A stretch of DNA of 33,726 nucleotides from NCBI GenBank assembly GCA_947455255.1, contig CANGOA010000014.1, positions 1 through 33,726 of the forward strand, given 5' to 3'. The notes beneath the pieces were generated by a model. That model saw nothing but the letters and a program-made list of their open reading frames with translations, was not told where the DNA came from and did no database searches. This DNA is from Flavobacteriia bacterium. GTDB taxonomy: Bacteria > Bacteroidota > Bacteroidia > Flavobacteriales_D > Crocinitomicaceae. Made by a program: the position numbers and the translations under genes. Shown piece after piece: positions 1,695 through 4,240 of this stretch. Each line of letters starts with the position of its first letter. The first letter of the stretch is position 1.

Positions 1695-1928
1695 TTAATT
1701 CTTTGTTAGCAATGCAAACAATTCGTCCTTTAGTGATACTCGCTCTATACGTAAACGATTTAAGACCTCGTCACTTGTATGCTCTGCACCCGTTTCTATA
1801 CGGTGTATCTCATTGTTTACTTCATGATAGGTTTCAAATAGTTTTCTAAAGTGATTATTTGAAATTTTTAAATCATGTATCTTTTGTTCCATCTCTGGGA
1901 ATTCGCTGTGTAAATCGTGTTTTTCCAT
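1695..1928 (-). CDS. DUF465 / YdcH-family small protein
   Basis: This 77-residue, charged, all-helical protein matches the DUF465 (YdcH) family in length and pattern: EKHDLHSEFPE near the N-terminus, then DLKISNNHFRKLFETYHE, the EIHRIETG block, and a C-terminal LKDELFALL helix. It probably forms a helical hairpin or coiled coil in the cytosol. The family has no settled biochemical role. Its promoter carries a CRP/FNR-like palindrome (1982-1997), which points to control by a Crp/Fnr-type activator, often linked in Bacteroidota to low oxygen or nitrosative stress (inference). The IS3 element lies immediately downstream and separates it from its likely terminator at 252-286. Confidence 0.88.
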   Translation of the reverse strand: MEKHDLHSEFPEMEQKIHDLKISNNHFRKLFETYHEVNNEIHRIETGAEHTSDEVLNRLRIERVSLKDELFALLTKN

Positions 1929-1952
1929 TTTTATTTCTTTTAAGTTATACTA

Positions 1953-1997
1953 CAAATATAGATGGGTTCTCTTAGTTTTACCATGACTTACGTCATG
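1953..1997 (-). promoter_or_regulatory. ydcH promoter with CRP/FNR-like operator
   Basis: On the minus strand TATATTTG (1953-1960) matches the Bacteroidota -7 element TAnnTTTG exactly. No TTG is found at the usual -33 position. Instead a perfect inverted repeat, CATGAC-TTAC-GTCATG (1982-1997), lies upstream. Its centre (1989.5) falls about 42 bases above the start site expected near 1947. That is the class II activator position of CRP/FNR proteins. The half site TGAC with a 4-nt spacer resembles CRP/FNR-family sites in general; the specific regulator cannot be named. Confidence 0.65.
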
Positions 1998-2176
1998 AAA
2001 ATAAACGATATATCTTTTGGTAAGAGAGTATATGTTGAGTATATGGATTGAGTAACTCTCAGGCCTATTTAATATGTTTACTTCTTTCAAATTTTGAACA
2101 ACTCTAATCATCGATAGAGAATTTCAAATCGAACGGAGCGGGAAGTTTAAAGTAATTGATTTAAACATTAATTGTA

Positions 2177-4240
2177 TCACTCCTCATAACTCACCTCGAC
2201 ATTTTTTACATATCCGATGATTTTGAATTCTGTACGACGGTTTTTTTGACGACCTTCAGGGGTAGTGTTAGGTGCGATAGGCTTTCCTTCTCCGTAACCT
2301 TTGGCAATTAATCTGCTTTTATCGATTCCATGTCCAATCAAATAGTTAACAACACTTTCTGCACGTGCTTGAGAAAGTTTCTGATTGTATTCGTTGGTAC
2401 CTACGTCATCAGTATGTGAACTAATTTCAATAATTAGTTTCGGATTGTCTTTAAGTAAATCAACTAATTCTTTATCCAAACTTGCGCGAGAATCAGGTCT
2501 AAGCTCTGCTTTTGCAGTTTCATAGTAGATATTTGATATAACAATGGAGCCTTTTGGTGTTTGTTTGATTCCTATATTTGTTTTTAAAGTGTCTGATTTT
2601 GTTACTGTTTCTGTAGAAACTTCGACTTTTTTATTTAAATATCCTTGCGCTTCGGCTAACACTTTGTAGTTTTTACCTTGTTCGACTTGAAATGAATACT
2701 CACCTTTCTCATTGGTTAAAGTTGTTTTTAATAAGGATTCTGTTGAATCTTTGTTTACTTTAAATAATGAAACTGGTGCTTTAACTACTGGTGCACCTGG
2801 TTTCTCTATACTTTCACTACTAACCTCGATAATTTTACCTGCTATGAAAATATTTAAGTATTGTGGATCACTATATTCGTAGATATCATCACAACAGGTT
2901 TCGTTCATCAAACTTACTCCACCTTTTCGATTCGATACAAAAAATCCAGACCTCTCTTTCGCATTTTTACCTTTAATATAATAGATGTCGTCTGCGCTTG
3001 AATTAAAAGGAGCTCCAATGTTTTCAGGGACACTCCATGCTTTAATTTCACCAACGCTTTGGTAGATATCTAATTCTCCTAAACCTGGTAAACCGTCAGA
3101 ACTATAATACAAAGTTTTATTTTCAGCATCGTAGGTTGGTGTCATTTCGTCACCAACCGTATTAATTGTTCCTCCTAAATTTTTCGGTTCTTTGTATAGT
3201 TTCTTTTTAGTATCATAGGAAGTGTACCAAAGATCTAAACCACCTTTACTTGATTGTGCTCGATCAGAAACAAAATATACAACTTCTTGGTTTTTTTTAC
3301 TATCAAAACCAACAGTTGGCATAGTAGAAGTAAATTCTTCACTATTTACAATGTCGCCTAAATCTTTTGGTGTTGACCAAATTTCTTTTTCTTTTGTAGA
3401 TACAAATAATCGACATATCATTTTTCCTTCAAAATTTGGTTTACATTTAGAAAAATAGAAACGTTTACCATCAGGAGAAAGAGAACCATTACTTACATTT
3501 GCATTTTTTTCATTAAATGGTCCTTTTAAAGGTGTTCCTCCATTCCATTGTTTATCTTCTCGTTTTGCAACATAAAATTTACGAACAGGTATAGAATCCT
3601 GATTTTCTATTTCATACAATTTTAAATATTCTTCATTTAAAGAACTGTAAATTAATGTGTTTGAGTCTAATAAGAGTGGTGAAGATTCTACGTGAGCTTT
3701 ATTTATAGATTCATTTAAATGATTTACAATAGCACTATACTTTCCTTTTGATAGTTCAATAGCAGTGTCACAACCAGCAATTTCTGCTTTTGCAAGCTTT
3801 TTTAGTTGTTTGATGTTATCTAAGTCTGAATTATTTTTACTGGTAGTAAATTTTGTATATTCCGCTTTTGCAGCTTCATAATTTCCGTTAGCCTTAAGCA
3901 TACGTGCATAATAAAATTGAGCATCAGGAAATTTAGTGATTACATTATCTATAATAATTTTATATGCCTTTTCTGATTTTTGATAATCTCGTGCTTTACG
4001 ATATAGATTAGCAATTTCATACCACTCTGAATAGGACGAAGAATTATTTTTTAAATATGCTTCATAATAAGTAATTGCAGAATATATATCACCTTTTCGT
4101 TGTGCATTTTGAGCAAAACGTTTCAATTGAAAATCTTTTAAACCTTCTGTATTAATAGGAGCTTGGGCATTTATTGAATGAAACGTTAATATGCAAATAT
4201 TTAGAAGAAGAATCTTAGTGAATTTTAAGAAAATAGTCAT
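2177..4240 (-). CDS. OmpA-family protein with TPR and PD40 repeats (PorE-like)
   Basis: This 687-residue protein starts with a Sec signal peptide (to about residue 25, ending INAQA). It then has TPR-type helical repeats (about 30-140), a WD40-like/PD40 beta-propeller region (about 180-440; for example LSPDGKRFYFSK and PTYDAENKTLYYSSDG), a carboxypeptidase-regulatory-like beta domain (about 468-560), and a C-terminal OmpA peptidoglycan-binding domain (about 575-680, with SHTDDVGTNEYNQKLSQARA and NRRTEF). This order is that of PorE, a T9SS-associated periplasmic protein of Porphyromonas; many Bacteroidota have several such paralogues, some paired with PorP/SprF genes. Here the PorP/SprF gene is 7.7 kb away, so a T9SS role is plausible but unproven. 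It is divergent from the Nif3-like gene with 58 bp between them. Confidence 0.88.
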   Translation of the reverse strand: MTIFLKFTKILLLNICILTFHSINAQAPINTEGLKDFQLKRFAQNAQRKGDIYSAITYYEAYLKNNSSSYSEWYEIANLYRKARDYQKSEKAYKIIIDNVITKFPDAQFYYARMLKANGNYEAAKAEYTKFTTSKNNSDLDNIKQLKKLAKAEIAGCDTAIELSKGKYSAIVNHLNESINKAHVESSPLLLDSNTLIYSSLNEEYLKLYEIENQDSIPVRKFYVAKREDKQWNGGTPLKGPFNEKNANVSNGSLSPDGKRFYFSKCKPNFEGKMICRLFVSTKEKEIWSTPKDLGDIVNSEEFTSTMPTVGFDSKKNQEVVYFVSDRAQSSKGGLDLWYTSYDTKKKLYKEPKNLGGTINTVGDEMTPTYDAENKTLYYSSDGLPGLGELDIYQSVGEIKAWSVPENIGAPFNSSADDIYYIKGKNAKERSGFFVSNRKGGVSLMNETCCDDIYEYSDPQYLNIFIAGKIIEVSSESIEKPGAPVVKAPVSLFKVNKDSTESLLKTTLTNEKGEYSFQVEQGKNYKVLAEAQGYLNKKVEVSTETVTKSDTLKTNIGIKQTPKGSIVISNIYYETAKAELRPDSRASLDKELVDLLKDNPKLIIEISSHTDDVGTNEYNQKLSQARAESVVNYLIGHGIDKSRLIAKGYGEGKPIAPNTTPEGRQKNRRTEFKIIGYVKNVEVSYEE

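Follow-up and report, generated by a model that had tools for sequence, protein, structure and literature searches.

Our comparison of DUF465 genes across a class of Bacteroidota places ydcH, a gene of unknown function, under a known kind of switch that is newly assigned to it. The palindrome upstream of the gene recurs at its relatives far beyond chance, keeps a preferred spacing to the -7 box and is shared with the promoters of the cbb3 oxidase operon (cco) and of a universal stress protein gene (usp). It is very probably the landing site of a Crp/Fnr-type activator. We consider it likely that such an activator, most probably an FNR-like one, turns on ydcH from a class II position at low oxygen, together with cco and usp; the binding to the ydcH site, the activation, the identity of the regulator and the oxygen signal are what we infer from these sequence patterns. 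Since no role is known for the Pfam family DUF465, membership in such a regulon is the clue to its function. A literature search that had most subscription journals outside its reach turned up no paper that connects DUF465 or YdcH with a Crp/Fnr operator in Bacteroidota.

Architecture of the ydcH promoter

The window, meaning the whole stretch of 33,726 nucleotides that was analysed, contains the following features of the ydcH locus.

1695 to 1928, minus strand: ydcH, encoding a DUF465 protein of 77 amino acids (PF04325 match of 52.2 bits, cut-off 25)
1929 to 1948, minus strand: predicted 5' leader of 20 nt, placed from the -7 box and its published -12 to -5 position
1953 to 1960, minus strand: -7 element TATATTTG (TAnnTTTG), read from the sequence
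1982 to 1997, minus strand: putative Crp/Fnr-type operator, palindrome CATGACTTACGTCATG, with core TGA-N6-TCA at 1984 to 1995 and centre at 1989.5
2006 to 2017, minus strand: weak, degenerate candidate distal operator (AAAGATATATCG), 22 bp further up, at a predicted -63.5

Read along the minus strand, CATGAC-GTAA-GTCATG (1997 to 1982) is followed by 21 bases, TATATTTG (1960 to 1953), the leader and the ATG of ydcH at 1928. Further upstream, across a gap of 248 bases, an OmpA-type gene (2177 to 4240, minus strand) faces ydcH with its 3' end. The original prediction had described a perfect CATGAC-N4-GTCATG palindrome, a good -7 element and a missing -33 TTG in this minus-strand promoter, and all three are borne out: the palindrome lies at 1982 to 1997, with the two-fold symmetric TGA-N6-TCA at 1984 to 1995, the -7 element lies at 1953 to 1960, and the stretch between the two, read directly, contains no TTG and thus no -33 element. 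A passage of PMC9723704 prints the Flavobacterium sigma-A box TAnnTTTG at -12 to -5 for F. psychrophilum, and by this position the +1 of ydcH would fall at about 1948 and the palindrome would be centred at -41.5, the class II position. This predicted geometry agrees with the class II arrangement that had been proposed, and the predicted start differs by one base from the expected 1947.

A genome-wide search for the palindrome, proposed along with the prediction, returned the window copy as the single exact copy in the 3.04 Mb of its own genome (G000), and the reversed-pattern control returned none. With that single copy, the exact palindrome was rejected as the definition of a regulon. Another candidate marker, TGACNNNNGTCAT, was rejected as well, being no commoner than its reversed control when counted genome-wide in three genomes. 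In 24 loci around hits to TGACNNNNGTCAT or the palindrome most sites lay inside coding sequence; those taken further were at ydcH and, in two cases, at usp. A signal emerged only with the outer bases relaxed and the position fixed relative to the ATG and the -7 box.

Conservation and spacing of the site

Orthologues of ydcH, collected by two routes among 13 genomes of the genus including its own, were found in nine and not found in G001, G006, G011 and G012. All nine loci (L011 to L019, the window included) carry TGA[CT]-N4-[AG]TCA, hereafter the strict site, at -66 or -67 from the ATG. Seven of the genus promoters form a gap-free alignment, in which all six TGA/TCA columns are invariant, with an average of 4.25 of 7 for the spacer columns. 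Columns -87 (A) and -81 to -79 (ATC) are also invariant there; they match the place where other promoters have a full second site, 22 bp away, although the distal site is degenerate overall.

Across the class DUF465 is sporadic, scoring over the cut-off in 28 of 396 genomes. The strict site was present at most 160 bp upstream in 32 of 38 DUF465 loci (shuffle mean 0.39), and the looser TGA-N6-TCA occurred between -75 and -50 in 31 of 38 (shuffle mean 0.35); over 300 rounds of shuffling the maximum never exceeded 4 for either measure. Other promoters in 20 wide loci had the strict site in 8 of 171 cases (Fisher p 3e-24 against the DUF465 promoters), and two of these eight lie before genes of a cco cluster, namely its regulator gene and ccoI. 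As the 38 loci are partly close relatives (nine of one genus, four of family f16) and not fully independent, the count by family is safer: the strict site stands at DUF465 genes in 15 of the 17 families of the class draw. The palindrome was thus largely kept, and not lost, in orthologous promoters, the outcome on which the original prediction had staked its claim. Left out of the 38 are L008 and L010, which the start-codon expression missed (L010 shows TGTGATATATATCACA, L008 no clear site); L093 and L104, the same loci as L011 and L020; L002 to L006, apparently the same contigs as G004, G010, G007, G009 and G008; L021, a partial match; and L111 and L112, which fell under the cut-off.

Six loci lack the strict site, namely L020 (G026), L086 (G240), L089 (G179), L106 (G208), L107 (G211) and L109 (G234). 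TGA-N6-TCA is present with one flank off in L106 and L109, L089 is one mismatch away (TGACCTAAGTCT), and L020, from the same family as the window, has only the right half-site, at the right distance. In L107 the site is missing, and its genome is the only one of 32 without any Crp/Fnr match. A small hold-out set, consisting of four further DUF465 loci over the cut-off from a second, phylum-wide draw, had the strict site in one locus and the relaxed form in three, the remaining locus being that of G651.

Among the 34 DUF465 promoters with TGA-N6-TCA, counting from the site nearest the gene, 20 have an offset of 33 bases between the operator centre and the first base of TTTG in the -7 box; the offset is 34 in one and 55 in two, and no other value was seen more than once. 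The full TAnnTTTG, with its TTTG at 33, is present in 14 of these 34, and a TTTG at 33 or 55 is found in 22 of all 38, against a background of 0.009 per base for TTTG in these promoters. Sites are doubled at a distance of 22 bp in L095, L097, L098 and L102, and in relaxed form in L105, and the offset of 55 equals 33 plus this tandem spacing. From these patterns an activator site that seems to be widespread in Bacteroidota can be described in practical terms: TGA[CT]-N4-[AG]TCA, centred 33 bases above the TTTG of the -7 box and often doubled at 22 bp.

Promoters that share the site

The gene for the cbb3 oxidase subunit CcoN scored over the cut-off in 21 of 27 chosen genomes, and the strict site lies about 220 to 345 bases above ccoN in 19 of these 21 loci (the misses being L123 and L132). 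At these loci the site precedes a small open reading frame, which in L175 matches FixS (ccoS), and the 19 promoters with a site have TTTG at 33 in six cases and at 55 in eight. A gene for a 279-residue Usp-family protein (PF00582) has the site with TTTG at 33 and/or 55 in 11 of 12 genomes of the genus, the twelfth locus (L215) offering only 46 bases of upstream DNA; the usp promoter of the genome of the window (L210) has both sites of the tandem pair. Cytochrome cbb3 oxidase of F. psychrophilum goes up under oxygen limitation, according to a passage of PMC9723704.

In two genomes of one genus, G240 and G651, ydcH itself closes the cco cluster, and it is without an operator of its own. The G240 cluster consists of a divergent gene for an FNR-like regulator, ccoI, ccoS, ccoNO, a small ccoQ-like open reading frame, ccoP, ccoG, ccoH, a DsbD_2 gene and ydcH; the genes of the G651 cluster were named by likeness of sequence and order, and its DsbD_2 gene shares 68% identity with the one in G240. 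The gap before ydcH measures 22 bases in G651 and about 220 bases in G240, and because of this larger gap a transcript shared with cco is less sure in G240. In G651 the DsbD_2 gene is preceded by a strict site (L237:2135). Co-occurrence of DUF465 with ccoN is weak (21 of 28 genomes versus 212 of 368, p 0.076), and ydcH operators also occur in genomes without ccoN over the cut-off.

Within cco clusters, more strict sites were seen in the interval that separates the FNR-like gene from ccoI (L237:10236 and L175:4080), where autoregulation of the FNR-like gene is possible. The gene directly downstream of ydcH in G097 (L183:7852-9030) has tandem strict sites of its own, at -85 and -63.

Candidate regulators

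A search for Crp/Fnr regulators, likewise proposed with the original prediction, detected them both in the genome of the window and in its relatives. The genus has three kinds: an FNR-like protein (CxxC, helix GTATETLIR), a GSARVVVSR kind and a NETTIR kind. The FNR-like protein, with cNMP_binding and HTH_Crp_2 domains, matches solved FNR (5cvr, E 4e-15) with three cysteines aligned. It is present in G004, G007, G008 and G010, four genomes of the genus that are at least 90% complete and have ydcH.

In the assembly of the window's own genome, which is 76.9% complete, the FNR-like gene was not found, and no ccoN scored over the cut-off. This genome encodes two PF13545 proteins, of the ARVVVSR and NETTIR kinds, and the latter (L172; G000 C138:5105-5710) is a Crp-type regulator of 212 residues with the helix NETTIR and no receiver domain, which among six genomes occurs only in G000 and G004. 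The nearest G000 homologue of the FNR region of G010 begins exactly at a contig end (C120), and the missing FNR-like gene fits an assembly gap, although here a gap looks the same as a loss.

Elsewhere the helix GTATET-x-IR, or close variants of it, is found in a fusion of receiver, cNMP-binding and HTH domains, which we call REC-Crp. In G026, G106, G086, G105, G061 and G142 genes for such fusions share the contig of the cco cluster and are no more than about 8 kb away from ccoN (in G061, G142 and G086 the fusion is judged by the length of the open frame only), and in the two loci examined a HisKA/HATPase kinase gene is directly upstream (L161:1483-3554 and L170:1477-3539). Four genomes with a ydcH operator gave a single Crp/Fnr match in a search that used the FNR-like protein as query and may pass over very distant family members; the match is FNR-like in G074, G259 and G242 and REC-Crp in G106, so either class can be the only one.

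Proposed mechanism and alternatives

Considering these data, we propose a model in which a Crp/Fnr-family activator uses the palindrome as its operator. The site would occupy the class II position of a Bacteroidota sigma-A promoter in which the -7 box is good and a -33 element is lacking. A dimer would read TGA-N6-TCA, and by touching RNA polymerase it would make up for the missing upstream promoter element. The activator would most likely be an FNR-like regulator with a GTATET-x-IR recognition helix, the same protein would turn on the cbb3 oxidase and the universal stress protein, and ydcH would be made at low oxygen. This suggests that YdcH belongs to the low-oxygen response. The promoter common to ydcH and the cbb3 operon, and the two genomes in which ydcH closes that operon, point to a testable condition, oxygen limitation, and to a candidate partner, high-affinity respiration. 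Tentatively, and with slightly less than even confidence, we extend the model to Bacteroidota DUF465/YdcH proteins in general, which may be accessories of the microaerobic cbb3 regulon under a conserved type of class II promoter (-41.5, in many cases together with another site at -63.5) read by two exchangeable sensors, either an FNR-like protein or a kinase with a receiver-Crp protein encoded beside cco.

A possible but distinctly less favoured reading keeps the class II Crp/Fnr operator and assigns it to another regulator, either the REC-Crp protein paired with a histidine kinase or the short NETTIR protein of G000 (C138), in which case the signal may be redox, heme or some other cue. The NETTIR and ARVVVSR proteins are what G000 holds while the FNR-like one was not found there, the REC-Crp genes of the six genomes sit on the cco contig with a kinase gene upstream in L161 and L170, and G106, where REC-Crp is the sole match, has a tandem operator at ydcH. 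Against this, G004, G007, G008 and G010, each at least 90% complete and with ydcH, all have the FNR-like protein, and G074, G259 and G242 have the site with FNR-like matches only.

That the palindrome is instead the operator of a repressor, or works both ways, appears unlikely to us: the sign of control is not given by sequence alone and Crp/Fnr proteins can repress, yet the centre at the predicted -41.5 is off the box and the start, there is no -33 element at that place to block, and the F. psychrophilum cbb3 oxidase is induced by oxygen limitation (PMC9723704). We give hardly any weight to an RNA hairpin, whether terminator or leader structure, or to a chance palindrome. CATGAC-TTAC-GTCATG could pair as RNA, but its place is upstream of the -7 box, and the symmetric flank pairs C/G, T/A, T/G and C/A occur at almost the same frequency, the pattern that independent protein half-sites would give, with C/A, which is unable to pair, in 9 of 36 sites; chance is opposed by the strict site in 32 of 38 loci. 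Activation by a Crp/Fnr protein, most likely the FNR-like one, is thus the reading we prefer.

Comparison with known systems

Class II promoters of FNR and CRP in Escherichia coli have a TGA-N6-TCA-type site at -41.5 and no good upstream element. The ydcH promoter resembles them in its symmetric TGA-N6-TCA at a predicted -41.5 and its lack of a good upstream element, and differs in having the Bacteroidota -7 box TAnnTTTG as its core. Nor does the site follow the FNR box TTGAT-N4-ATCAA, as the consensus here is TGA[CT]-N4-[AG]TCA with a variable outer T and with C nearly as common as T after TGA. Relative to the structures 5cvr and 5e44, which we take to be A. fischeri FNR, the FNR-like protein shares the N-terminal CxxC, a cysteine aligned to the internal ligand position and the E-T-x-x-R helix, whereas the third cysteine of its N-terminus is out of place (HKAC, which departs from the FNR spacing) and in the genus protein I stands where the FNR helix has a serine; we assume that the aligned cysteines are ligands and that the serine is a contact residue in FNR.

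In rhizobia, FixL, FixJ and FixK control the cbb3 genes fixNOQP. The Bacteroidota loci likewise have a kinase, a receiver and a Crp-type regulator in front of a cbb3 cluster, but receiver and Crp are fused in one protein and DUF465 is added to the putative regulon. The receiver-Crp fusion that follows the kinase may correspond, as a single protein, to FixJ-FixK.

Above ydcH of E. coli MG1655 a search that allowed two mismatches found no FNR or CRP box, and for this reason we make no claim beyond Bacteroidota. In published E. coli lists the gene appears next to cydAB in a table on pH and oxygen (PMC1626474) and as peroxide induced or OxyR linked (PMC4207228), and our reading rests on neither; the retrieved passages of PMC6904343, PMC10757798, PMC8343143, PMC6168606 and PMC7064467 merely list the gene, the family or unrelated references.

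The YdcH protein and its surroundings

The 37 aligned DUF465 proteins keep H4, F10, P11, K21, F27, Y34, D53, K67 and D68. An AlphaFold2 model of YdcH is all helical (H6-9, H11-23, H25-45 and H53-75; mean pLDDT 83.8, pTM 0.65), and the nearest solved relative by sequence, with E 1.7e-5 over residues 10 to 74, is HP1242 (PDB 1zhc), presumably from H. pylori. Neither the conserved residues nor the helical model yields a mechanism.

Positions 1 to 70 of the window presumably are the 3' end of a 5S rRNA gene, and this cut-off piece has no Rfam match at the gathering threshold; if it is such an end, ydcH would converge on an rRNA operon. The contigs of G007 and G010 end within 300 bases of ydcH. An IS3-type element with HTH_Tnp_1 and rve open reading frames occupies 298 to 1687 of the window, bounded by imperfect terminal inverted repeats of 25 nt (298 to 322 and 1663 to 1687), and its end lies about 8 bases past the stop codon of ydcH.
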